From NCBI RefSeq assembly GCF_016097555.1, contig NC_054702.1, forward strand, positions 71,888,856 through 71,952,855: a stretch of DNA of 64,000 nucleotides. Reading direction: 5' to 3'. Shown here one piece after another: positions 8,497 through 63,305 of this stretch. The position numbers and the translations under genes were made by a program. The stretch comes from Gigantopelta aegis. Its lineage: Eukaryota > Mollusca > Gastropoda > Neomphalida > Peltospiridae. How positions within the stretch are numbered: the stretch's first letter is position 1; every line of letters begins with the position of its first letter. Under the pieces are notes generated by a model. That model had not been told where the DNA came from. It saw only the letters and a list, made by a program, of their open reading frames with translations, and made no database searches.

Positions 8497-16932
<8,436 letters not shown>

Positions 16933-26200: not shown

Positions 26201-29200
26201 CCCTACTTTACTTTAAATTAATACAATTTTACTAAATTATAGTAATAATAAGATGTCACCTAAATAGGGAGATAGAGCTTAAAAACACTAATACTGGGAG
26301 TTTGGGGTGAGGGGCAGGATATTCATATTTACAAAATACACTTGACTGCAACATTTGACCAAAAAAATTCACTAGCCATTGGGCATGGCAATAGTAGTTA
26401 TTTACTAGCCCAACATTGAATATCACTAGCCATGGGAGTGAGGCAACCATAATCTAGAAGCCCTGGACTTACATTTTCAAATTTGTTTGAGAAAGATGTA
26501 ACTGAACTTGACATTTTGTGTTAATGATTCACATACATGCAATTGTTAATGACGGATCATTATAAACCAAGTTTATCTAAGATAGTTTAAGGTTTAAATG
26601 TCTCTTGTATAAACCCGATATAAGAAAACGGGCTGTAATGTTTTAACCTGTATTTTATTTTAGAACTTTGGTTTAAATGTTGTATATTACCACAATATAT
26701 GGTAAAGAATCAGTTGACATATATATATAAACCTCTCCATATACAACATGTAGTAATAAAAGTAAAACATCTAAATATTGCTAAAACATGTAAAATAATA
26801 AAAACAAGTTATGTGGTTCAAATTGTTTGAGGTGGGGGTTTTTTCTTTTTCAGGCATCGCCAGGAAATTTGACCCAGTTTGAAGAAATTCTCTTTGGTAA
26901 CAATGACATGGCTGCGTCTGTGGGTGTTATTGCCGTCAAACTGGGATCTGATGGTGGACAGAGGGTAAGAGTGCAGAATTTGAGAGTTTACAAGGAGTAA
27001 TCTCCCCTTCAGTGTTCCACATTAAAATTTTAACTCACCTGCTCAGAATTGGAATATTTTTATCCTTGTGAAAGCAGCACTCTTCTTAAATATGTCATGA
27101 CTTACATTGTAAAACATGACATGACTTACATTGTCAAACATGACATGACTTACATTGTAGGTAGGTGTAAAATGTGGGGATTTTTCATTCAGGTTTTTGA
27201 CATGCAAATAAATTTAACATTTTGAATGTTATGTGTATTTGATCGAGATTAATGTCTGACCAACTTATTTGTATTTCTACAACTTAAAAACAGTACATCA
27301 AAAAGGTATAATCTACTGTGCCTTTTATTTTTTATATCATATTTGTTAGGCATGTACAGGTATTATTAGATAGTATTCTTAACTTCTTTTATGTTTAAAA
27401 TTTATAAACTTTTTGAATTGCTTGTTTAAAATTATTTTTCTCCTCAAAATAATGATTATGATCTACATACATGTTTTGCTTTCAGTTAGTTGGAGTCGCT
27501 TATGCAGATGCCACATTGAGAAAGTTCATGATCAGTGAATTTACAGATAATGACCAATTTTCAAACCTGGAGGTAAATATTTTTGTAATTTGTTATAAAA
27601 TTATATATACACTACAGTCTAGTGTTGGGGAATCAGTTGGAATTTCATAATCAGTTTACACCAATTGTCACGGGGATCCTATAATACCTGTAACTGAATA
27701 AAACACGATTATCCAAATCTCTCTCCAAACTGTATATCTATTAGATCTCTCTGTAACAGGCAGTTATACCCGCTGGCTCGTCTAGGTATGATCAGAGATA
27801 AGATCTTATATAAAGTATATATTATTATAGCACGTTTAGTTCACTAGAAAACACAACAAATACACAATACACTTTGGAATCTGTATTAACCTACGCTAAC
27901 AAATGTACTGCCGCAGTAGTTAATTAACAACAACAATATAATAACAACCCAGAACTGATCACTTAATTAGTTAATCTCTAGGTGTCTAGTTTACACAATA
28001 TTCTAATCACTTCACGGTAATACAACCCACACACGTGTGATANAACTCTATTGAGAAACGCTGCCAGGGGAACTTAATTAATAAAGGAATTACAACTCTA
28101 TTCCTAACTGGTTAATTTTTAATTAACCCTAACTACTCCTTCAATAACCTTGTAAAACAGACTTAATACTGGTACCTATCACAATAAAGACAATAACCTA
28201 CAGTTTACCTAGGTCCTCTAGGATGACTGGATAATCTTTTTATAATTATTTAGGACAGTGAGCCTACAGATTACTGCGTCAGATGACCGGCAGCACCGTC
28301 TAAATAATATTGGTATAATACAGTATTAAAATATTTAAAGTCACATCAATCACATCAAGGTTATACAACAGAGCAGAAATAATATATAATTACCACGTCC
28401 GGGCTGAACTCATATATTTCGTTCAGTGGACGACGTCCGTTTCCCCTGCAGCCTTCCTATGTTTCTCCCCGATATCTCTAAAACCCTAGCTATTTATCAT
28501 AAACCCGAATATTGCCTGGGGGTACAACGCGGTCCTCCCCCTATCAAGTGGTATTTCCACAGCGACCACGCCGGCATTTTTTTCTTAGATCGTCAGACTT
28601 ACTGGCGCCTAGTCGCCAAAATCACGGTCGTCGAAACCGCACTCGCAGAGGTATTACGTAACTACTGGCCACATGACCTCCACAACTGGACTAAGTGCAT
28701 ATTGGGATGCACGGTCGCGCGAAGGTATTATATAACAAGGTGCCCACCTGGACTAAGTGCATATTGGAACTGCACACGGCCCTCTAAAACAATTAATATC
28801 GCCACAGGCGAAAACAAAATTAAGAGCATGTTCCGTCACACCAATCGATCGACTTTCGATTACACAATCGGTTAGAATTTCATAATCAGTTTACACCAGT
28901 CGATCGACTTTCTATTACACAATCGGTTAGAATTAAATGAAAATAAGAAGGGTTTGAATTATAAAAAAAATAAACATTACAAATTATTTTACCTTTAATA
29001 ATAATTTCATATTTTTTTTGTTTATGTGCACACATAAAAACAAACACTAACCTCTACATATTTACATCAATTTCATTATTTTAACTGGAGGGACAATTAC
29101 AGTAGACATTTTCTCAAACATTTTTATAATTGATCATCATATTTGATAGGCTAAAAAGTTGATTGACTTTTTGTGGGAGATGGAAATTTTCAGGATTTTG

Positions 29201-32200
29201 TTTTTTAATTCCATATTTCGGCACTATTTTTGCCCTTATACTGTGATATAGAAAGCTCCCAGGAACACTAGACTAAAGTTTTTGTATGGTTTTGTTTTGT
29301 CCCATGTTATTTTCATCCTCCTTATAACAATAACTTGTCTTTAAAAGCCACATGTTCTGGTTTGACTACTCAGTAAATATAAATGAGAGTGACTGTACAG
29401 CTAAGATCTGCAATCTTTACAGGCATTAATTGTCCAGCTTGGTCCCAAAGAATGTGTTTTGATGGCTGGTGATCTGACAGGTGACGCTGGAAAACTAAAA
29501 CAAGTTATAGAACGAAGTGGTCTCTTGGTCTCGGAAAAGAAACGAAGTAAGTATTGTTTTCGCTGTTTGTGTGTGTCTACTTAGGTTTTTCTTTTGACTA
29601 AACCATTGTTTTTATAACTCTTAATGTTACAAGAATGTGACAGCAGAAAGAAAAGTTAATTTTGTGCACACCAGTTTCAGAACAAATGTGTTTTCTTAAA
29701 AGAATTGATGAATATATAATTTATTCACATACCATTTTGAAATGTTTGATGTAAATCATGAAATATCAGCTACCTAATTTGATTTATTTCTGATCAAAGA
29801 TCTATTAGCAAACTATACATTTGATGAAGCCGGCTAAGTTATTATGTTAGATACTGTTTCTTGTGTATGGATTGTTATGAAATATCAACATTTGGTGTAG
29901 TCTTGCTATTCCTGATTTACAGTATGTATTTAACAGATGTATGAGTTTTGGGAAGTGTCATTTACATGTCATATTAAGTGATACTAAACATCTAAAAATG
30001 GTCATGTAACAAACCTCTAACCAGACAATGAAATATGTTTATTCTGATTTAGTATATACCTCTTATTTTCTCTTTGTTTAGCTGTACATTTTTGCCATTG
30101 ATCATGTCTTGTTTAATTTATGCAGATGACTTCTCCAATAAGGATAATGTTCAGGATTTGAACCGATTACTCAAGTTTAAGAAAGGAGACCAGCCAAACT
30201 GTGCAACAATGCGTAAGACTTTTAGGGTTTCTGTTTATACACAGTTTTTTACATCTGCTCCATGTATACTAAAAACAAATTGTATTGGGGCTACTAGTCA
30301 TATGGGAAAATTGTCCTCAAATCATTTGTTTTCTATAGCCATTACCTGTCCTCAAACAAGTGCACCTCCCCCCACGCAAGTGGTCTGGTCCAAACATCCC
30401 AACAGCCAATGGGATGGCCTAAATTCTTCTACTGCATACTTCTCTCTAGTTCCGGTCACATGACTATAACTTCCATCTTTTTCTCTTCGCTAAAGGGTCT
30501 GGACGTCCTTTTGCTTGGCTCTGTTTGGAGTCGACTTTTATAAGACCTTTGGTTTTGTATTCGTGTTTGGGTGAAATGTTTTTCACCTTCGTTTTCATTA
30601 GCTTTCGTATGTTCTTTTCGCGTATTTCGCTTGACTTTCCAAGCGCTTAATTACATGAAATGTTGTTTATATTGCCGGTTGTCGTGTCGGACGCCATTTG
30701 AAAAATGGTGTCTGTGTTGACTGGCTTTGTGTTTGGGTGAAATGTTTTTCACCTTAATTTTCGTTAGCTTTCGTATGTATTTCGCGTATTTCGCTTGACT
30801 TGCCAAGTGTTAATTACATGAAATGTTGTTATATCGCCGGTTGTCGTGTCGGACGCCATTTGCAAAATGGCGTCTTTATTACCGGCTTTGTATTTGTGTT
30901 ATGGTTGGTTTTTCTTTCTTTTCACAGATTGAAAAATTACTATTATCATATCTGATAATGTTCAGGCGACTAGTTCGAGCGTGTTACGCTGCAAGAAGTT
31001 AGTGCCGGCGGCGACCCACACGACTTATGTCCAGGTTGTCGTGTTCGTGTGGCCTCACTTCTAGATGCGACCTTTGTGCGGGCTTGTCTGATGTCGAGTT
31101 CGCGGCTTACCTGAAGGTGGTGTCAGCGAGGACCAAGAAGGTGGAATCTTCGAGGACCAAGAAGGTGGAATCTTCGCCTTCGATTGCTGACTCCGTGGCA
31201 GAAGTGTTACGTTCAATTCTACCGACCATGCTGGAAGAAACAATGGCGTCAATGGCGACCTTACCCAAACCGGCGGGTTCGGGATCAGGTCCGGTTCCAG
31301 TCCCCTCTTCAGGGGGTGCGGCTTCTTCAGCTCCACCGATACCTAAGACTTCGGATGACAGGCCTGCGGTCTCTACGCAGCCCTCTAAGAAGCCGGCTCA
31401 TTCAGATAGACGCTCCACGGATTCCAAGGCTCACCGATCTTCGGCGGGGAAGTCCTCTTCGGCGTATCGGAGCCAGGACCGTAGCCGTTCCACATGACCT
31501 GTATGGCTCCCTACGGGTTCCACAGATCGTCAGCGCCAACCTTCAGTTGATGTGGCTTCCAAGGCCTCCGAGGGCTAGACGGGACCATCCACGGTCCGGT
31601 TAACCGGCGGCTTCCAGTATGGTACATCGATTGACCTGTGCTCGAGTTCTACGAGACTTGGTGATGAAGCGCCTGCGGCATCTGTCATTGAAGAGCCCGA
31701 CTCTACGGACCATATGACTATGAGGGATTGCTTGGCGGCCGTCTACGACATGTTGCCGTCCTTGCCACATCCAACGACGATGTGGTCATCCGTTCCTTGG
31801 TATCCACACGGAACCGCCCACGGTCCGGTTCTCCGGTATCTCCATCGGGCCATGACCAGAGCGACTGGCTTGTTCACGGGTGCTACGTGACTTTCTGATG
31901 ATGTATCGGTTCTTGCGGTGCTGGAAGATCTGGATGCGGCGGACCACCTGTCACTGAGGGATTGTCTGGCTGTCATATCTGATATGCTACCGCCGCTGGC
32001 TCATCCACCTGTTTCAGCCAAGAAGGGTCCGGTTTCGATGATCGCCACGTAGGTTCCACCGGCAGATGTCACAATTCGATCGTTGGCTGCCACAGGCCCC
32101 TGTCGGTTTACACGGCTACCAGTAACCGGCCCGTGCGGATCGTTGTTCCAGCAAGCAGACGGAGCCCTGTAACGAACTGGAAGATTGCTGCGTCATCGGC

Positions 32201-35200
32201 TCACCGTTCGGTACCGTCGTCCTGTGATCGATCGAAGTGGTCCCGTGATCGATCGAAGTGGTGCAGCGTCCAGGGTTACACCGGCTCCTGACGGGACCGT
32301 CCACGGTCCGTGTTTCCGATTGCAGCCAGTACATTGGATTGAAGTGCTTGTGCCAGGTTACTGACTGATTTTCCAAATGATGCGTCAGCACCTTCCGTTA
32401 CAGAAAATCCGGACGCAGTGACCCACATGGCTGTGACTGATTGTCTCCCGTCTTCAACCTATCCTTCAACGGTGTGGCGCCGGCTTTGGATGACACTGTT
32501 TCCGGCGGGACCAGACGTCTTCCTAGAACTTACAGATTGGCACGTCCTGTCGATGGCTTCAGTTCAGCGTACATGTACATGGAGACCATAACTCCTCATG
32601 TGCAGGATGCCAGAGGATATGCCTTGTTCCAGCCGTCGACTTTGATGTTGGTCTACCTTATATCTTCCGTGACGTAGATGTGCACTACGATTGCACACTA
32701 TCGTCAACCGACTTGCCTGAAGCGATCCATTCTCGACTTTCAGCACAAGCCGGTAATCTTGGCAGACCTATGGTCTACATACGGCTCTTTGCCGTGAAGG
32801 GGTTCGACATTACAAGCGTTCCGGGTTAGTGACGAAGACAGTCTACTGGTCCGGTCACTTGTGTTGAGATCCCGTGCACCGATGTTCGAGGAAGGTTCAG
32901 CGACATTCGGCAGATCTTTCTCTATATCCGGTGGCGATGCAAGACAGTCGCTACTTCCGCTGGTTCCGGAAGATATCCAGTTGCCATCGCATGGTACGGG
33001 GATCATTGCGGCTTATCAACTCACTGACGTTCACTGTTGTTACCGCCAGAGTTCGTGACCGATGCTGTCTAGATGGTCTCTGCTGCTGTTTCGCACCGGG
33101 TGGTGTGACGACCGTGGATTTTAGCCAGTTGCTGTTTTGCGTTGCTTCACTTCCAGGTATATCGGGCATGTAGCGTAGCGAGTTGCTACGCTGTCTTGGC
33201 TCTTGCCTGTATCACGGGGTGGCTGTTTCCGATGTCTTGATTCCTGAATCACTCTATTACTGTTTCATGAAGTATCATTGCAAGAGTAATTTTGACGTCG
33301 GCGCAACATTTGACTCTTAGAGGTCGCAGTATCCAGTTTGTTTCTGAATCCATGCATTCAGTACAATAACGCAGATTTGCTGATCCGGTTACCAGTCGCC
33401 TTGCCGTCCAGTCCCTGTTGGTGGCTGTGGTTTCCAGATGAAGCCGATCTACCCATCAGCCTGTTGGAGATGTTGGCAGTTACGTCATCCTTCATTGGCG
33501 AGAGATGCCGTTAGGCGCCTCTCTCATGGTAGCCACAGACTACCACCGCAGTGGCTTATATCAACTGTCGGGGCGGAACCCACTCCAGCAGTCTGCTGCA
33601 GTTGACTTATCGTCCCTACAAGCTGGTTGACGAGATTCCGTTGCAACTTCGGGCTCGCCATATTCCAGGGGTTTCCAATGTACTAGTCAACACACTGTCT
33701 CGGCCGTTGTCTCCACATCCGACGGAATGGATGCTCCATCCCGAAGCATTTCGATGGGTGTGCGACAGACTTTGCACACCAAACATCGATCCTTTCGCCA
33801 CACGATTCAACCATCAGCTGAGGGTTTACGTGTCTCCGGTGCCGGATCCCGAAGCTCTGGATCTCGACGCATTGGCCATCAGCTGGGAACAGATGGACGC
33901 ATACGCTTTTCCTCCAGCAATCCTCCTTCCATGGGTGCTTCAGAGGTTTCAGCTGTACCATTGTCGCCTGTTACTCATTGCTCCGATGTGGCCATCCAGG
34001 ATGTGGTATTCAGATCTAATACGTCTTGCCGATCCACATCCTTTATCGCTGCCAGACTGGGATCATCTGTTGCTGCATCCCACGTCAAGACTATACCATC
34101 CACATCCGCAGTTGTTCCAACTGCACGCGTGGACTGTATCTCCAAGAGTTTGAGGAAGAAAGGTTTTTCTTCACAGTCTACGGCGGCCATTTTGAAAGCG
34201 CACAGATCATCTACTACTGCGGCTTACAACGTCAGATGGCTTTGTCTTCACCGATGGTGTGTCCGGCAAAAACTCAACCCTCAGACGATTCAAATACCTC
34301 TTCTTGCTGATTTTTTGCTGTATCTGCGGACCACTTTACGATTGAAGGGGTCTACCAACGCTGGGTACGTTTCGGTCATCGCTACTGTTCGTGATGTCAC
34401 TACTGGAACGAAGTTATCAGGTATTCCTGAGATCCATAAGATGATCAAAGGGTTTCGCCTTGAAGATCAAGTACACCGGTTTCGGCCACCAAGATGTTAC
34501 GTGTTACGAGCGTTATTGACCGCACCTTATGAGCCGATCGAATCCTCTTCCCTGCAAGACTTGACGCGGAAGACGGTGTTTTTACTCGGTTTCGCCACAG
34601 ATGCCCGTGTCTCAGAACTCCATGCTCTTGATGTAGACTTGGTACGTTTTCACCGAGATCGGCGTGCAGTCAACTTGGGGTTACTCATGAACTTTGTTGC
34701 AAAGAATCAGTTACCAGACCAAGCGCCTCGTTCGTATGTTGTGCAGGCCCTCTCCTCTATCGTTGGTCCAGCGGACGTTGAGGACTTGGCGTTGTGCCCT
34801 GTTAGAGCCCTGCACCAGTACATCGAGAGGACCAGATCTTTTCGACAACATCGCAAAAGACTTTTCCTCTCCTGTAACCAGAGTCGGTTGAGGGATCTTA
34901 CCAAGAACACGGTGGCCACCTGGATCCGGTCTTCTATCCTGACCGCCTAACAGAAGGAGGGTTTACCTGCTCCGTCTGCTTCTAATCCGCATGAACTCCG
35001 TGCCTTGGCTGCCACGATGTCCCTGCACTGCAACACACCCATTCAGCACATTATCACTGGTTGGTTCTGGGCTACGGACTCCATCTTTGCCAACTATTAT
35101 CTGAGGGATGTCTCCACAGAAGACGTTGAGGGGTTCCATCATCTGGGTCCGGTTGTTGCTGCACAGACTCTGTTGAATACAAGCCGTCCTCGTCGCCGTT

Positions 35201-37533
35201 GATGTCTGTCTGATTCTGGGCTGCATACCGAGATGTCCATCGAATCGACAGATGAGGATTGCTTAGACTTTTGTTCTTTTGCACAGTTCACGTACTGGTG
35301 CCGGAACTTTTGTCTCGATAACCTTTACCCTGCACTGCATGTGGTTATTGGTTGTCATTATTGAACTAACAGATCTTTGGTGTACTAGACAGAAAACACT
35401 CGGGGGTCTTGTTTTGTTCAATGTTCTGACGGATGCACCTCATTAGGTTGTCGCTTGTTATTGAAAAACTATAACACTTCAATACGTGAGGGTTACCTAA
35501 CACCTGCATCCCTGGTGGCTACGTTTTCCCACCCTGTCAGAACCAGCATGAGATGTGGCTTCCGCCTCCTGGTCCATGTGTTCTAGGAGCCGTACCTGCC
35601 ACTGCTGACGGATGCCACCATTCTGGTTGTTGTTACTAACATCACCTGCATTGGTCTGTGACGGGCATCCCTAGGAGGAGAGCTTACCAAGGTTGGCCTT
35701 ATTCTTCCACTAGTCAGCCTCTTTCCGGTTGGGGAGTTATCACAAGCATCTACGGATTTCAGCACCCACCACCATCTGTTGAATGCTGCACTTGTTTGAG
35801 GACAGGTAATGGCTATAGAAATGGAGAAAACTTGGAGTGTTTTCTCTTTTATAGATACATTACCTGTCCTCAAGATTTCATCCCGCCCGGGCCTCCCAGC
35901 TTCCTGTTCTCCGTGCGATGCGCTCAGGGAAAAAGAAGGAAGTTAGTCATGTGACCGGAACTAGAGAGCAGTATGCAGTAGAAGAATTTAGGCCATCCCA
36001 TTGGCTGTTGGGATGTTCGGACCAGACCACTTGCGTGGGGGGAGGTGCACTTGTTTGAGGACAGGTAATGTATCTATAAAAGAGAAAACACTCCAAGTTT
36101 TCTCCAGTTTATAACCAGTGAAATGTTTTGAATCAAATTGGTGCCAAGTTCTATTTGAAATTTGTTATGAAAAAGAGTTACATGTATGTCTTTAAAACCG
36201 TAGATTTCTTAATCATGTGACATTTGTTTTTAATTTTCAGCTGAGCTGGATAAAACACAGGCAACGTGTGCACTGACGGCTGTCATCAAATATTTAGAGG
36301 TGATCTATATTATTATTGCCTCATTCAACAGATTCAATGTTAAACGAACATTATAAATTATTTTATTTGTTGTTGAGTTTATTCATATTGAAATCTGTTG
36401 GGAGGGGAGGGGGGGTGTCTCTGTCTTTTTCTTTTATTTTGTGTTAGCATGAAGATTCTTTTTTTAATTTCTGTGTTAGGTGCAACAGTCACAAAGTGTA
36501 TTAAAATCCCCCCCATGTTATGTCTTTCAATTGCTGTAATTAGCATGCTGATTTTTTTATCAATCTGTGGTGTGTTCAGTCAGAGAAGTTGGCTAAGTAC
36601 AAAACTAGTGCATTGTAAACATGACTTTGATTACTTCATTATGTAATGATGACATTCATTATTTATTTTAATCAACTGTCTCTCAAAGAAATTGAGGGCG
36701 AGTTGTTGCCCAGTGGTAAAGCGTTCGCTTGATGCTCGGTTGGTCTCGAATCGATCCCCAATGGTGGATCCATTGGGTTATTTCTCATTACAGCCAGTGC
36801 TCAATAACCTGTGTAACAAAGGCCATGGTATGTACTAGCCTGTCTGTGGGATAGTGCATATAAAATATCCCTGGCTGCTAATCAAAAAAAGTAGCCCATG
36901 AAGTGGTGACAGCGGGTTTCCACTCAATATCTGTGTGGTCCTTAACCATAAATCCGATGCCAAATAACCACAAATAAAAAGTGTTCAGTGCATCATTAAA
37001 TAAAAACATTTCCTTCCTTCCTCAAAGAACTTGAATACACCAAAAAAATTTAATTTTAAAATATTGTTTCTGATTTTTAAAAATTATTATTATCATTATT
37101 ATTATTATTACAGCTTCTGTCAGATGAAGGGAACTTTGGCCAGTTTTCACTGACTACGTTCGATCTGAGTCAGTACATGAAGCTGGATGCTGCTGCCGTG
37201 AGAGCTCTCAATTTACTGCCGAGTCCAAATGAAGGTGTGGATTATCTCCCCTGCATTTAACAGCAGATTGACTTACAAATTATTTTTTATATTCTTATTT
37301 GCCCTTTTAAAGTTGAATTTTGTTCATAAGCAAATAGTTGTTGCCTATATTAATTCAGAATGTAAATTTCCACCGTCTTTTTTCGAAATGAGTTGTAATT
37401 ACTTCAGCAGATAAAAACTTACTTGAGGTGCTGTAACTTATGCTTGAGTTTTATTGAGTGGAGGCACTAGGTTGTCTCTCCGGCACTAACCTTAGTACTG
37501 GGAAGACTGATGTCTTGTATTCCAAAGCCAGCA

Positions 37534-40500: not shown

Positions 40501-43500
40501 CGGCTTGCTTTAGCTGTTTAATTATTTAAATGTATTTTGATAAAATATTTTTTTTTTTAAACACATTAGGAGTTGCTGATGGATTTTGCAAAGTTTCAAG
40601 AAATGGTGGAATCCACAATGGACTTGAATCAAGTGGAGAACCACGAGTTTGTCATAAAACCGGACTTTGATGAGGCTCTGGCAGGTGAGAACTGAACCAC
40701 GAGTTTGTCATCAAACCAGACTTTGATGAGGCTCTGGCAGGTGAGAACTGAACCACGAGTTTGTCATAAAACCGGACTTTGATGAGGCTCTGGCAGGTGA
40801 GAACTGAATCACGAGTTTGTCATCAAACCAGACTTTGATGAGGCTCTGGCAGGTGAGAACTGAACCAGGAGTTTGTCATAAAATCAGACTTTGATGAGGC
40901 TCTTGCAGGTGAGAACTGAACCACGAATTTGTCATAAAACCGGACTTTGATGAGGCTCTGGCAGGTGAGAACTGAATCACGAGTTTGTCATCAAACCAGA
41001 CTTTGATGAGGCGCTGGCAGGTGAGAACTGAATCACGAGTTTGTCATAAAACCGGACTTTGATGAGGCTCTGGCAGGTGAGAACTGAACCACGAGTTTGT
41101 CATAAAACCGGACTTTGATGAGGCTCTGGCAGGTGAGAACTGAATCACGAGTTTGTCATAAAACCGGACTTTGATGAGGCTCTGGCAGGTGAGAACTGAA
41201 CCACGAGTTTGTCATAAAACCGGACTTTGATGAGGCTCTTGCAGGTGAGAACTGAACCATGAATTTGTCATAAAACCGGACTTTGATGAGGCTCTGGCAG
41301 GTGAGAACTGAACCACGAGTTTGTCATAAAACCGGACTTTGATGAGGCTCTTGCAGGTGAGAACTGAATCACGAGTTTGTCATAAAACCGGACTTTGATG
41401 AGGCTCTGGCAGGTGAGAACTGAACCAGGAGTTTGTCATAAAATCAGACTTTGATGAGGCTCTTGCAGGTGAGAACTGAACCACGAATTTGTCATAAAAC
41501 CGGACTTTGATGAGGCTCTGGCAGGTGAGAACTGAACCACGAGTTTGTCATAAAACCGGACTTTGATGAGGCTCTTGCAGGTGAGAACTGAATCACGAGT
41601 TTGTCATAAAACCGGACTTTGATGAGGCTCTGGCAGGTGAGAACTGAACCACGAGTTTGTCATAAAACCGGACTTTGATGAGGCTCTTGCAGGTGAGAAC
41701 TGAATCACGAGTTTGTCATAAAACCGGACTTTGATGAGGCTCTTGCAGGTGAGAACTGAACCACGAGTTTGTCATAAAACTGGACTTTGATGAGGCTCTT
41801 GCAGGTGAGAACTGAATCACGAGTTTGTCATAAAACCGGACTTTGATGAGGCTCTTGCAGGTGAGAACTGAATCACGAGTTTGTCATAAAACCGGACTTT
41901 GATGAGGCTCTGGCAGGTGAGAACTGAACCACGAGTTTGTCATAAAACCGGACTTTGATGAGGCTCTTGCAGGTGAGAACTGAACCACGAATTTGTCATA
42001 AAACCTGACTGATGAGGCTCTGGCAGGTGAGAACAGACTTACTACGGAGATGATTTCATCAGCATCAACTACCTCAAAATGTCTATAATTTGGTAATTGA
42101 GTAAAATTAGAGCAAGTTGGTTATCATTTTGGAATAATTTCTTTAAATCTCTAATTAATAAATCATGCATCCATGATATCATACCTAATTTTATAATTAT
42201 GTTACAATTATTATTGTGGACTCATTATTTTGACTTTGTCAACTCAGTTCTCATAGGTGTTAAAGAGTATTAAACAAAGTAACAAAGTGCCTAAACATAT
42301 CTACATATATACTCCCTGTAAATCTTGCAGGTTGATTGATGGTCATCCAGGATGATATTTAATTCTAATTTGATTACGTACATATAAAAATCAGCTATGT
42401 AATCTTTTTGCATTTTATCAATTTCATTATATTTTGATTATAGCATTGAGGGAAAAGATGGATGATGTTGAAGCTGGAATCAAAGGCCAATTAAACAGGG
42501 TATGCAAGTATTCATATGGATAGAAAAAAATAATGAATTTTGGAGAGTTCTTTTCTTTTCTTTTAAATTTACAATAAAGAAATTCCAACATGGTTAACAG
42601 ACTGTATATTAAATTATTAAAGTTTACTGTTCATAATTCGTCAGTTGTTCCATGTAGAGAGGTCTTTCTGTATCTACCATTAAAGCTTGGTGGGTTATTG
42701 TCATTATTTGTTCTTGATATGTTTACTTATTTTGTTATAGGTTGCTAGAGACCTTGGTCTGGAAGCCAACAAGACACTCAAACTAGAAAACAATAACCAG
42801 CTAGGCTATTTCTTTCGGGTAACGAGAAAGGTATGTTGATTCATTACATTTAGATGCTGTCTGGGGTAAAATGGTTTGTTCTAATTCAGTACAAAGATAT
42901 TCTGAATATTTCTTCTTGCATAACTTTCATCCACAATAAATCCAAAACAATAATTCTTATATGGCTGTACTTGTCTTGTAATCTTATGTGATCTTTTTGT
43001 GCAGGGAGGCTTTGAATAGCAGAAATATTATTTGTGTGGAAAAAAGTCATTAAAAGTACATGTTAAGATATGACAGTAGAACGTGTTCAGCTATACTTTG
43101 TCAGTGTGGTTAGATGTAAAAGTTCTACATCCTGGTAAAACTGTCACTGACTTCAGTCAAATGCATTGTGGGTTTTTGATAAAAAATTATTGTGAAGTTT
43201 GAATTTCTTACAGGATGAGAAGTGTTTGAGGAACAACAAGAACTACATAACAATAGACACGAAGAACAATGGCGTTCGGTTCCACAACAATGCTCTGAGA
43301 AAGATGAATGAGGAATACATGCAAGCCAAGGAGGATTACAATGAACAGCAGAAAAGTGTTGTAGCAGAGATCATCTCTATTGCAGGTTATTATCGGATAC
43401 CTAGTAAACATAATACAAATAACTTAATTTGTTTATATAGTTAGTGTTTGAGAGTATGAAGTTATGAATTATGTTTCCAGCTTCAAAATGTTCAACAGAG

Positions 43501-56504: not shown

Positions 56505-56985
56505 TTAATTCATTTTCTTCACACCACGGGGCTTCCAAGCTCTGAGCAAAACAATTGCAAAATATAATGCAAAAACATGAAGCTGAACTGCAGCTGCAAG
56601 AAAAAGTGACCATACAACAACTGCAGGATAACCAAACAAAACATAAGTGAATTTCTTTTCATAAACGTAAGCCTTTAAATGGTCACTTAAGTCATAGAAT
56701 CCATACAGAACAGGAAGAATTCCAAATACAACTGTTCCGAGCATGAATTGTTTCAGCAAGAATGAGTTATTCTGAGGTGTTGATTTCCAGCCCATCAAAG
56801 CCACTACCAAGGTGACGAACCAGGCATATTCCCATGGACGCGGAGCAGGCAGATCCCAGCGTCTCAGACTCTGAATGGAAAACCCTAAGAGTGCAGTTAA
56901 GCCAGGCAGCAGACGAATAAACATCATGAAGATCATCAAAAAATGAAGAAAAATGTCCCATCTTAGTCTGTACTTGTTCTCTGAA
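56505..56985 (-). CDS. JAGN1: JAGN1: jagunal homologue, last exon
   Basis: Jagunal is a four-span membrane protein of the endoplasmic reticulum needed for ER organisation and the early secretory pathway (known for the fly and vertebrate proteins). This exon gives about 160 residues to TAA: ENKYRLRWDIFLHFLMIFMM, then the diagnostic RPWEYAWFVTLVVALMGW, FGILPVLYGFYDLSDHLKAY, FGYPAVVVWSLFLAAAVQLH and LYFAIVLLRAWKPRG with a KK-containing tail, VKKMN. Four hydrophobic segments are visible. WEY, ILPxxYxF, the G/Y pair and the AWK end match fly Jagunal closely. The acceptor is TTTTAATTTCAG; a second CAG five bases in makes the exact edge uncertain. The first exon (family start MASRxGPxxxGTDG) was not found up to 64000 and may lie outside the window. 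The gene converges with MSH2. Confidence 0.93.
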
Positions 56986-57213
56986 CTGAAATTAAAACCA
57001 TAATGATAAGAAAATTATCATATTGAATAATGAAACATTGGACATACACTCCCATTCCTTTAAGTTTAAAAATAGGATGCAGGCAACTGATTTGGGGGTT
57101 TAACGATACTTGTGGAACATAAATGTAAATAGTTCCAACGTATATTGTAATATAATAATAATTTAAGAAGTATCAACTACTGGCACTGGCTGGGGTTAAA
57201 CCAGCGTAATGAG

Positions 57214-59331
57214 GGAGCCTGGCGATCTCGCCCCGTGTCGATCTCGCCCTGGTGAACTCGCCCGGGGCGACTTCGCCAGACTTATTTTCATCGTTAGGCG
57301 AAGTTATCATACATATTAGACTTGCTAGAAGACATATATTACAACATATATTATAGTATATATCTACTGTCATTATCAGCATGTTTTTGTGCCAAAACTA
57401 CAGGGTTATACCACTTATACTACTAGTTTTGTGTTGGGACACGCTGTGGCGAGATCGCCATATTTACTTCCGTGTTGCATGTCTGTTTAGCGAAGTCGCC
57501 AGTACATTATAACTCAACAATATTCAAGTTACAAGCTGTTTTATGTTTACTTCATTAAGTAAATACATGTGCAGTAGTCATGTTTTGATTTTCTTGTTGT
57601 AAAATGTAATACATTGGTAGTTTACATTTCTGACGATTTCACTTGCAAGCCGGGGCGAGATCGCCAGGATTTTCCAACATGTGCAGAGCCTGGCGATCTC
57701 GCCCCGTGTCGAGCCTGGCGATTTTGTTTTTTTTGTTTAAGTTTACAGTTTACAGTTTATTATAATAAATACACGTAAAGTACACATTTATGGTTTGTTT
57801 CATCATGTAATGTAACATTTCTTATTATTTCACTTTTTCAGGCTGTGGCGAATTATACCAAATTGAACATCAAAGTGTGCACTTATGACAAATAGTTGCG
57901 TAGTAACGTGTGACAACTTCACCAACATAAATGTTTTATGTTTACTTCATTAAGTAAATACATGTGCAGTAGTCATGTTTTGATTTTCTTGTTGTAAAAT
58001 GTAATACATTGGTAGTTTACATTTCTGACGATTTCACTTGCAAGCCGGGGCGAGATCGCCAGGATTTTCCAACGGAGCCTGGCGATCTCGCCCCGTGTCG
58101 ATTTTGTTTTTTCTTGTTTAAGTTTACAGTTTACAGTTTATTATAATAAATACACGTAAAGTACACATTTATGGTTTGTTTCATCATGTAATGTAACATT
58201 TCTTATTATTTCACTTTTTCAGGCTGTGGCGAATTATACCAAATTGAACATCAAAGTGTGCACTTATGACAAATAGTTGCGTAGTAACGTGTGACAACTT
58301 CACCAACATAAATGTTTTATGTTTACTTCATTAAGTAAATACATGTGCAGTAGTCATGTTTTGATTTTCTTGTTGTAAAATGTAATACATTGGTAGTTTA
58401 CATTTCTGACGATTTCACTTGCAAGCCGGGGCGAGATCGCCAGGATTTTCCAACGGAGCCTGGCGATCTCGCCCCGTGTCGATTTTGTTTTTTCTTGTTT
58501 AAGTTTACAGTTTACAGTTTATTATAATAAATACACGTAAAGTACACATTTATGGTTTGTTTCATCATGTAATGTAACATTTCTTATTATTTCACTTTTT
58601 CAGGCTGTGGCGAATTATACCAAATTGAACATCAAAGTGTGCACTTATGACAAATAGTTGCGTAGTAACGTGTGACAACTTCACCAACATAAAAATGCTA
58701 CACTGAGAAAATCCTGGCGATCTCGCCACAGCCTGAAAAAGTGAAATAATAAGAAATGTTACATTACATGATGAAACAAACCATAAATGTGTACTTTACG
58801 TGTATTTATTATAATAAACTGTAAACTGTAAACTTAAACAAGAAAAAACAAAATCGACACGGGGCGAGATCGCCAGGCTCCGTTGGAAAATCCTGGCGAT
58901 CTCGCCCCGGCTTGCAAGTGAAATCGTCAGAAATGTAAACTACCAATGTATTACATTTTACAACAAGAAAATCAAAACATGACTACTGCACATGTATTTA
59001 CTTAATGAAGTAAACATAAAACAGCTTGTAACTTGAATATTGTTGAGTTATAATGTACTGGCGACTTCGCTAAAGAGACATGCAACACGGAAGTAAATAT
59101 GGCGATCTCGCCACAGCGTGTCCCAACACAAAACTAGTAGTATAAGTGGTATAACCCTGTAGTTTTGGCACAAAAACATGCTGATAATGACAGTAGATAT
59201 ATACTATAATATATGTTGTAATATATGTCTTCTAGCAAGTCTAATATGTATGATAACTTCGCCTAACGATGAAAATAAGTCCTGGCGAACTCGCCCGGGG
59301 CGACTTCACCAGGGCGAGATCGCCATACTCC
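57214..59331. mobile_element. Foldback-type element, 2118 bp, with internal tandem repeats
   Basis: Flanked by the 8-base target duplication GTAATGAG (57206-57213 and 59332-59339). The ends GGAGCCTGGCGATCTCGCCC and, inverted, GGAGTATGGCGATCTCGCCC open long inverted arms: 57214 to about 57670 mirrors about 58890-59331. Between them are about three tandem units of roughly 381-395 bases (unit starts at 57539, 57934 and 58315) and a further inverted unit from about 58705. The near-palindrome GGCGATCTCGCC or its inverse occurs about 13 times. No coding capacity is seen. The 8-base duplication and long structured arms fit a non-autonomous foldback or long-TIR element; which transposase moves it is unknown. 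Confidence 0.88.
57539..58697 (+). repeat. Tandem units inside the foldback element
   Basis: Three successive units beginning TTTTATGTTTACTTCATTAA at 57539, 57934 and 58315, nearly identical. The first is longer by an extra AGCCTGGCGA-containing insert near 57680-57725. Confidence 0.88.
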
Positions 59332-60810: not shown

Positions 60811-61159
60811 TTGAGAATTCAGACTAATGAACAAGAAAATGAAGAAATTCTTAAAACTACTTTGAAATTCATTACTGCTACTATACGTTGTTGGTAAAGT
60901 TAACACATAAATTTTATGCTAGACATTACACAATGCAATCTAAAAGTTCTGCAGTTTTCTACTCGCTATACCAACCCTCACCCCCATCCTTTTTTCCAAC
61001 CCCTTCTCTTTTTCTTCCTCTTTATTCAAGTCTGTGTGTGTATGTTGTATGTTAATATGTATCCCCTTCAAAAATGTAAGGAGATGTTTTAATATAGGCT
61101 AAGCATGTCGACCAATCCCATTTTGTTTTGACAAATAAAGCAACCAAAAAAAAAGGAAC

Positions 61160-61269
61160 CTCAAACATAAATGATTCATTATAGTAAGGGTTGAGTGTGC
61201 ATTTCTTTATGGTAGTTTTCTTCTTGATGCGTTTGCCATTTAACATCAATGAGATCTTAACATAAGTAT
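61160..61269 (-). CDS. Lone synaptotagmin C2B-type exon
   Basis: Behind the acceptor CTTTTTTCTAG, the minus strand reads (D)[17 protein letters not shown], then [19 protein letters not shown], which matches the C2B polybasic strand and following loop of synaptotagmin (fly: DPYVKIAIMQNGKRLKKKKT and [18 protein letters not shown]). The polybasic run has one Lys fewer than usual and DP is DT. After FE the frame goes on VPFF and then leaves the family; GAG|GTTCCT is the only candidate donor and is weak. The exon is 2 + 36 codons if this donor is used. No other synaptotagmin exon is seen in the window. It could be one exon of a long-intron gene or an orphan duplicated exon. Confidence 0.7.
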
Positions 61270-61673
61270 CTAGAAAAAAGTGAAAAAGGCAAGAAAAAAA
61301 ATAACATAAAAAATTGTGTGTTCCACACGTAAGCCATAAACGATGATCAAAAACACATTCAACAAATGGCGTACACCATGCCAGAATGAACTGCGAACAC
61401 AAAAAAGAAAATCGAAACTTTTCAGTTACGGTAATGTGTTTATTGTAGTTAGATGAGTCAGCATATACATGGCCGGCTAAGTGAACGGGATTGAGTAGGA
61501 AACCACCACCACCCCGGTGAATGTTTGTTTTAATTGTTTTTGTTGCTGTTGTTTGTCTGTATGTTGTCGGGGTTTTGTTTTTGTTTTGTTTGGGGGGGGG
61601 GGGGGGGGTGTTGTTGTTGTGTTGTTGTTTTTTTGGGGGGTAGTGTGGGGTTTGTTTTGAGGTTGGGGGTTTC

Positions 61674-61858
61674 TTTGTATGTGCTATCTTGTCTATGGGA
61701 TGGTGCATATAAAAGATCCCTTGCTACTAATGAATAAATGTAGCGGGTTTCCTCTCTAAGACTATTATGTAAAAATTATCAAATGTTTGACATCCAATAG
61801 CCGATGATTAATAATGTGCTCTTGTGGTGTCGTTAAACAAAACAAACTTTTGATCAAG
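61674..61858 (+). mobile_element. SINE tail half, family B
   Basis: From TATGTGCTATCTTGTCTATG through GCATATAAAAGATCCC to GTGGTGTCGTTAAACAAAAC. The head half is missing. Preceded by a long T/G tract (61500-61670) with an 18-19 base G run. Confidence 0.82.
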
Positions 61859-62453: not shown

Positions 62454-63305
62454 TATATATACTCAAAGGCAAAAGTTATTGTGACATGGATTGTTTGGAG
62501 TAATACATTTGTGAATGGATTTATGGATGTCAACCAGAGAAAATGTGCATGAAACAGCTCAAAGAAATGCAACCAAGCAATTGTTGCAGCGATTGCATGC
62601 TTTGTGCAAGAAACATGGAATATTCGGAAGAAATCCTGTCCAATGTTCACCATAAAAGGCCAGACATTCAGTCGCAAATCATTGCCACTCTGTGCAGCCT
62701 TCAGAAATCCAGAAGTCAGAAAAACACCATTAGTGCTGTTTGATGCAATTTCGTCATGTCACGCCTCAGTAAAAATGACAGGTGGCGAGTCGTATGGATG
62801 CTTGAATCCGGGACCTCGCAGCGTGACGTTGCACGTCAATTCAACTTCCACAAAAACACCATATGGCACTTATGGCAACGATATCAACAACACAACCAGG
62901 TCAGGGACCGTCCACCCATGACAACCCCTCGCCAAGACACATGGATCCAAACCACGCATCTGCGAAACAGGTTCCAGCCAGCAACCTCAGATCAGGAATG
63001 GCATTCCCAGGAACTTTCTCCAGTGTTCAGTGGCCTCAATGAGACGACGGTGTCAGGCCTGTATCAATGCTCAAGGTGGACACACTTGCTACGGATTGTG
63101 TGAACTTCGCTCTGGACCTCCTCTAGTGATGTGGCTCATCCCTTTGCATATGGCAGGTGCGCCCTTTTCATGGACTATAGGTCGTTTTCATACCTTCAGA
63201 CATTTTTCTTTCCATGTTATAACGTTTCGTACACGGCAGTAAAAACTTATCATCAATTATCTTTCTTTTGTGTGTCACAATAACTTTTGCCTTTGAGTAT
63301 ATATA
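62454..63305 (+). mobile_element. Tc1-type DNA transposon, internally deleted (852 bp)
   Basis: Perfect 33-base terminal inverted repeats (core ACTCAAAGGCAAAAGTTATT; 62454-62486 against 63273-63305) sit in TA-rich flanks, giving TA target sites. The interior keeps the N-terminal transposase part and has lost the catalytic DDE region, so it can only be moved by a related enzyme. A different Tc1 family from the element at 11041. Confidence 0.92.
62756..63103 (+). pseudogene. Tc1 transposase N-terminal fragment
   Basis: Reads MSRLSKNDRWRVVWMLESGT then SQRDVARQFNFHKNTIWHLW, a helix-turn-helix, and QVRDRPPMTTPRQD, a hinge like GRPRxTTxRED. From about residue 70 on the frame decays; no catalytic residues are left. 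Confidence 0.88.

Follow-up and report, generated by a model that had tools for sequence, protein, structure and literature searches.

The minisatellite of the human gene IFI6 (6-16/G1P3), which has a unit of 12 bp, is said in the title of a 1995 report by Turri to provide multiple splice donor sites. Two downstream repeat units serve as donors in this gene, leading to three mRNA species (PMC4526556, in the part cited). In amphioxus, tandem repeats spanning exon-intron boundaries have been described in Adh3 and in the globins BflGb6 and BflGb9 under the name of "mirages", a term adopted from the work on Adh3 (PMC3087553). According to the sections of that report cited here, mirages have unit lengths of 10 to 160 bp, carry AG/GT signals in many copies, show length and somatic instability and evolve in concert with exclusion of the cluster boundaries; on the basis of Adh3 data and globin RT-PCR, the authors suggest that they do not interfere with regular splicing (PMC3087553). 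Related processes have been proposed for the origin of introns. In the Rogers model introns are gained by tandem duplication of AGGT, and in SPOG_01682 of fission yeast, with 24-bp duplicates, the intron stretches across several duplicates (PMC4974935, in the part cited); likewise, human minisatellites located at exon-intron boundaries may form new introns (PMC2812944, same limit). Drosophila ratchet points, as presented in the cited part of the source, have an acceptor directly adjoining a donor, with a second donor further on that delimits a cryptic exon of about 50 nt; they lie mostly in long introns (PMC8605326).

An earlier note on the DNA considered here had stated that it knew of no description of an architecture in which a splice donor is multiplied within a minisatellite; such architectures are on record in the amphioxus mirages (PMC3087553) and the IFI6 donor minisatellite. 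A literature search for an array of this kind in MSH2, judged by titles and the beginnings of abstracts, found none. Repeats of the kind seen in MSH2 are thus known, though they have rarely been described. The array is probably a mirage minisatellite that straddles the boundary between exon 15 and intron 15 of a functioning MSH2 gene, with the first donor in use and the remaining ones removed with the intron.

The MSH2 gene and the array at the end of exon 15

The features of the locus are given below in coordinates of the window, that is, the whole stretch of 64,000 nucleotides analysed; in splice motifs a slash marks the splice site.

17235 to 50396, + strand: MSH2 gene, coding part, 26 exons (spliced protein-to-genome alignment)
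40570 to 40684, + strand: MSH2 exon 15, 115 nt, ending in codon phase 1, CAG/GTGAG (PDB match, tblastn and spliced alignment)
40636 to 40641, + strand: exonic hexamer GAGAAC, which recurs in the donor 51 bp further on, at 40687-40692 (read from the sequence)
40638 to 42034, + strand: 56-bp minisatellite of 25 copies, with exon end and 5' splice site in each (TRF, motif count and unit comparison)
40638 to 40693, + strand: unit 1, last 47 exon bases and first 9 intron bases (sole exonic unit in the gene model)
40685 to 40700, + strand: stretch with an in-frame TGA on use of a later donor, GGT GAG AAC TGA (sequence and translation)
40685 to 42443, + strand: intron 15, 1759 nt as modelled, with 24 extra copies at its start (spliced alignment)
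40889 to 40910, + strand: unit end CTCTTGCAG/GT, example from unit 5
41982 to 42034, + strand: last and most diverged copy, bounding the array on the right (54-bp spacing due to a 2-nt deletion)

The spliced alignment, for which human MSH2 served as the guide, produced a gene model with no internal stop in which 590 of 935 aligned columns are identical to human MSH2. The exon with the array matches the PDB MSH2 chain 8r7c_A over an aligned stretch (435-479) that includes a few residues preceding the exon, and tblastn places exon 15 at residues 442-479. Both the assignment to MSH2 and the exon number proposed in the earlier note are borne out, the former by the agreement between the PDB match and the spliced alignment and the latter by the rank of the array exon (15th of 26) in the gene model. 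A protein search of the genome with exon 21 retrieved the MSH2 locus (100%) and three other loci at 40-52%; as these are probably other MutS homologues, MSH2 is apparently single-copy.

Other features were observed in the window. Intron 9 of MSH2 contains a GC-rich insert (30329-36109): each kb from 31 to 36 kb has 49-57% GC, compared with 30-38% for most kb nearby. Inverted repeats of 138 nt, 96% complementary and with arms 5477 nt apart, border the insert, which encloses a 439-aa open frame at 33631-34947 with no Pfam or PDB match; judging by this structure, it looks like a transposable element. Further tandem arrays are located outside the MSH2 exons at 8967-10097 (51 bp x 22), 13666-14275 (53 bp) and 57537-58693 (381 bp x 3). 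Downstream of MSH2, two open frames of the - strand match Jagunal (56508-57014, E 7.2e-40) and a C2 domain (61055-61723, E 5.5e-9). The + strand of the window also has a DDE_3 endonuclease-like fragment below the Pfam cut-off (11825-12358) and an HTH transposase-like fragment (62744-63100).

TRF describes the array (40638-42034) as 25.0 copies of period 56 with 95% matches and 0% indels, and a + strand count of GCAGGTGAGAAC in the window gives 25, every one inside the array, in agreement with the approximately 25 tandem copies of exon end and donor counted in the earlier note. The 24 spacings between copies comprise 23 of 56 bp and one of 54 bp. GCAG/GTGAGAAC is present in 25 of 25 copies and all 25 carry CAG/GTGAG, so the donor is intact in every copy, as had been stated; the 25 donors have 12 identical bases in common and the sequence upstream of them is nearly alike. 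The unit had been divided into 45 exon and 11 intron bases; this division is correct except for an ambiguity of two bases, a shared "GA", as TRF starts that much earlier (47 and 9). That an exon end was captured together with its donor also holds, since MSH2 exon 15 really ends in the first copy. Intron 15 has its acceptor, TATATTTTGATTATAG/CAT, beyond the array and ends 409 bases past it; this intron ranks 6th longest among the 25 introns of the gene.

The array is far above chance expectation. In the rest of the window CAGGTGAG occurs once per strand, and MSH2 exon 23 has its donor at the plus-strand occurrence (48577). A DNA search of the genome with the exon-plus-donor query, in which one candidate place was scored and very common words were skipped, matched the MSH2 locus only, as 24 rows, and the 56-bp unit gave 0 matches against viral contigs. 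The Pfam family WG_beta_rep was matched in two frames covering the array with 24.2 and 26.7 bits (cut-off 25.6); in the absence of a separate matching stretch this was taken as an effect of the repeat.

The 24 full-length units belong to 11 types with a mean pairwise difference of 2.36 of 56 bases (maximum 6), arranged in the order ABACDEFGAGHIHGDEHGHJKJGH, in which the block DE is found twice (units 5-6 recurring as 15-16). Units 3 and 9 agree with unit 1, the exon copy, at each of the 56 bases, and the last (25th) copy is the most diverged. Compared with the exon copy, 10 distinct substitutions occur among the 24 units. Read in the frame of the exon, 7 of them are synonymous, and third codon positions account for 7 of the 9 variable columns. 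This synonymous bias, in a test that rests on 10 changes, has a P of 0.0008-0.013 depending on the mutation model (0.013 under strong transition and CpG bias). The pattern suggests exchange between the selected exon copy and the array, but variants that the exon had acquired prior to amplification could account for it as well. As to the beginning of the array, the pair of GAGAAC hexamers may have seeded the first duplication.

Exons add up to 2793 of the 33162 bases of the MSH2 gene (sum from the gene model), about a twelfth, and the genome is full of minisatellites; hence, it is not unlikely that by chance an array should start in an exon and cross the donor. It is the toleration of the array that calls for explanation, and this toleration would be explained by the use of the first donor.

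Donor choice and rival explanations

According to the mechanism we propose, a tandem duplication over the exon 15/intron 15 junction would have grown to 25 copies by slippage or unequal exchange. The first copy would still form the end of the exon, its donor serving the functional mRNA, while the other 24, probably devoid of function, would ride as the 5' part of intron 15 and be spliced out whole. Two reasons would account for the persistence of the array: copies past the real donor are harmless provided that the first donor prevails, and minisatellites abound in the genome.

If a later donor is used, the reading becomes GGT GAG AAC TGA, and translation ends after 478 aa. The in-frame TGA within three codons announced by the earlier note is therefore confirmed; it was seen in the translations printed for later donors 2, 3, 4, 7, 24 and 25, and all others give the same stop since they retain the same first 56 bases. 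With 11 exon junctions downstream of this stop in the gene model, decay of such transcripts would be expected from general knowledge. Local signals hardly distinguish the right donor from the 24 wrong ones, and only position, order of transcription or exon definition can do so. Folding of exon 15 and the first units (40570-40910) gave a z of -0.94, with 17 of 100 shuffles folding equally well, so no special RNA structure in this stretch hides the later donors. Given the near-identical surroundings, the choice must rest on exon definition, on the order of synthesis or on the decay of failures; exon 15 measures 115 nt with the first donor versus 171 nt and more with later ones. When SRSF1 binds immediately upstream of two donors, the intron-distal one is suppressed, and according to an earlier report to which the same study refers, tethering of SRSF1 between donors shifts the choice towards the intron-proximal one; in the part cited here, the study's own global analysis gave no distinct corroboration of this intron-proximal effect of SRSF1 located between the sites (PMC5585400). 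In view of these effects, the first, intron-distal donor would have no automatic win.

The statement that the first donor must be chosen needs a qualifier, since recursive removal through later AG/GT sites would yield the same mRNA. The array might act as a ladder of recursive splice sites in which the intron is removed in steps of 56 nt or multiples, the same donor being regenerated each time and the mRNA remaining unchanged. Every unit is indeed a 56-nt GT...AG stretch that ends in AG and opens with GTGAG, with the juxtaposed AG/GT of ratchet points, and the geometry fits the cryptic exon of about 50 nt plus downstream donor of Drosophila (PMC8605326, in the part cited). Ten of the 24 full units have CTT instead of CTG near their end, which makes a better acceptor-like sequence, and these CTT units outscore 7 of the 25 real MSH2 acceptors (5 of 25 with heavier pseudocounts, 11 of 25 when two exon bases are scored); none of the 377 AGGT sites outside the array (both strands) matches them on both acceptor and donor scores, although 4 of the 377 equal or exceed them on summed scores. 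The CTG units, however, are below all 25 real acceptors (above 1 of 25 when two exon bases are scored), the previous AG is just 10 nt upstream in the units versus 13-112 in real introns, and the sole branch-like motif stands 14 nt from the unit end. Moreover, intron 15 is short (1759 nt), unlike the long introns in which ratchet points mostly lie according to the part of the source cited (PMC8605326). Altogether, recursive splicing of this intron is improbable.

About as little chance is given to a length-dependent brake on MSH2, in which the array donors would draw U1, part of the transcripts would end in the TGA and decay, and the copy number would tune the amount of mismatch-repair protein. 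Such an effect would be favoured by the strength of the donor, which is 3rd of 25 in MSH2 both by a leave-one-out PWM and by U1 pairing (-11.1 kcal/mol), with 4 of 1784 other intronic GTs scoring as high by PWM, and by the location of the stop upstream of 11 further exon junctions. On the other hand, similar arrays at the unrelated genes MED12 and myosin indicate that there is nothing special to MSH2, and amphioxus mirages are thought not to disturb splicing (PMC3087553, in the sections cited); the brake is, like recursive splicing, unlikely. An artefact of the assembly, by which the copy number or the whole array would be wrong, deserves the least weight. An aberrant draft assembly is mentioned for one amphioxus mirage (PMC3087553, same sections), but the 11 unit types in irregular order with a diverged edge, the presence of one N in 64 kb (at 28043) and the similar arrays at the independent MED12 and myosin loci argue against it. 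Most likely, then, the MSH2 array is an ordinary product of a minisatellite-rich genome, removed with intron 15 from the first donor.

Arrays at splice junctions of other genes

The assembly that holds the window comprises 1.149 Gb. Tandem arrays with a period of 15 or more and no fewer than 2 copies make up 7.2% of the window, and the 97,548 bases around 30 myosin-head matches are covered to 12.6%. Two further cases in identified genes of the same genome, MED12 and a myosin head exon, are new. The MED12 exon (L049:3973-4102; chain 8tq2_C, residues 1120-1160, E 2.5e-8) ends in an array with a 141-bp unit and 3 donors, in which copies 2 and 3 are without two bases of the exon copy and the first intron bases give an in-frame stop. 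The myosin head exon (locus L055), ending in ...CTCATCGAGAGG/GTGAGT, has an 80-bp unit repeated 8 times, with 8 donors, composed of 23 exon and 57 intron bases; its first 80-base insert contains no in-frame stop, yet it shifts the frame. Just past this array, at L055:2301-2420 (contig C8, about 71.021 Mb), a diverged longer copy of the myosin exon end was observed with its own GTGAGT donor (motif at 2350), which is perhaps an older duplicate or an alternative exon.

Among the 30 myosin loci, 21 of them on contigs C1-C13, six (L052, L055, L060, L061, L071 and L079) show an array no more than 80 bp away from the match; the match ends are not all confirmed exon ends, and the cases are too few for a rule. 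Three of these (L055, L061 and L079) were inspected closely; at L061 and L079 the arrays lie just upstream of the exon and, in the units shown, the acceptor AG is absent from the repeats.

Seven donor-motif arrays were considered among the matches listed at the start of contig C1. One is a proven exon end (MED12) and one a likely exon end (L044), four have no exon by eye in their flanks, and a tRNA-like one at 2.65 Mb was judged from the matched letters only. The likely case, L044:4240-7747 (about 1.174 Mb), is an open frame placed between an upstream AG/GT array (46 bp x 22) and, at its opposite end, a donor array with 99% matches (85 bp x 28). The upstream array of this exon seems to contain a repeated AG; the predicted protein gave no Pfam or PDB hit, and for this reason the locus is not counted as proven. 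A 34-bp array of about 91 copies was also observed on the same contig (719699-722733), with no exon by eye beside it, and the 8-kb stretch fetched around it has 85 CAG/GTRAG motifs on one strand.

Over the whole genome, three tandem occurrences of CAGGTRAG gave 4171 matches versus 853 for the reversed pattern (single sites, 53857 versus 36880, a ratio of 1.46), a normalised ratio of 3.35. For the acceptor-like TTTKCAGG the values were 1257 versus 591 (single sites, 93499 versus 52845; normalised ratio 1.20), and for the stricter CAGGTAAGT in three copies 486 versus 285 (raw ratio 1.7, to be set against the single-site 1.46 of CAGGTRAG). Since these totals count matches, not arrays, and are dominated by large arrays, and since the matches listed in the first 2.65 Mb of C1 include 3 donor arrays versus 2 in the reversed control, a genome-wide donor bias of arrays is possible but not established.

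Based on these cases it may be speculated, with considerable doubt, that splice-junction minisatellites recur in this animal, which is probably not a cephalochordate, tolerated mainly at donors because the first of several identical donors wins, and homogenised with the exon by exchange. MSH2, MED12 and myosin would then be three of many and would form a natural series in which to test how 5' splice sites are chosen; at MSH2 the length of the array might carry a cost. With arrays of differing copy number at conserved genes of one genome, the rule of donor choice would be measurable in vivo. Gene predictors, in turn, may well stumble over mirage arrays.

Comparison with described repeats and splicing systems

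The MSH2 array resembles the IFI6 minisatellite in that a minisatellite supplies multiple splice donors. The two differ in that the alternatives of IFI6 are used and encode isoforms, whereas the 56-bp unit of MSH2 breaks the frame and brings a stop, which argues against stable isoforms of the IFI6 type. With the Rogers type of intron gain the array shares tandem copies of a segment containing AG/GT; introns of that type take both splice sites from the duplicate, and this is not the case in MSH2, where the acceptor of intron 15 is outside the array. The likeness to Drosophila ratchet points consists in the AG/GT juxtaposition, the regenerated donor and the geometry of a cryptic exon of about 50 nt, while MSH2 intron 15 is short and the acceptor context of its units is of uneven quality, fairly good in the scores of the CTT units and poor in those of the CTG units and in the spacing of AG and branch-like motif.

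The correspondence with mirages is closer. The repeats cross an exon-intron boundary, splice signals are present in 25 of 25 copies, and concerted evolution with exclusion of the edge is apparent, within one allele, from the 11 unit types, the repeated two-unit block and the diverged 25th copy. As the three mirage features examined in sequence are all found at this locus, the array is classed as a mirage. The amphioxus genome measures about 0.5 Gb; compared with the mirages of that animal, the MSH2 array has 25 copies at a donor in a genome of 1.149 Gb with a 120.6-Mb contig, sizes out of keeping with amphioxus. It stands out by its copy number, by the gene affected and by its apparent occurrence outside cephalochordates, suggesting that mirages are not confined to that group.
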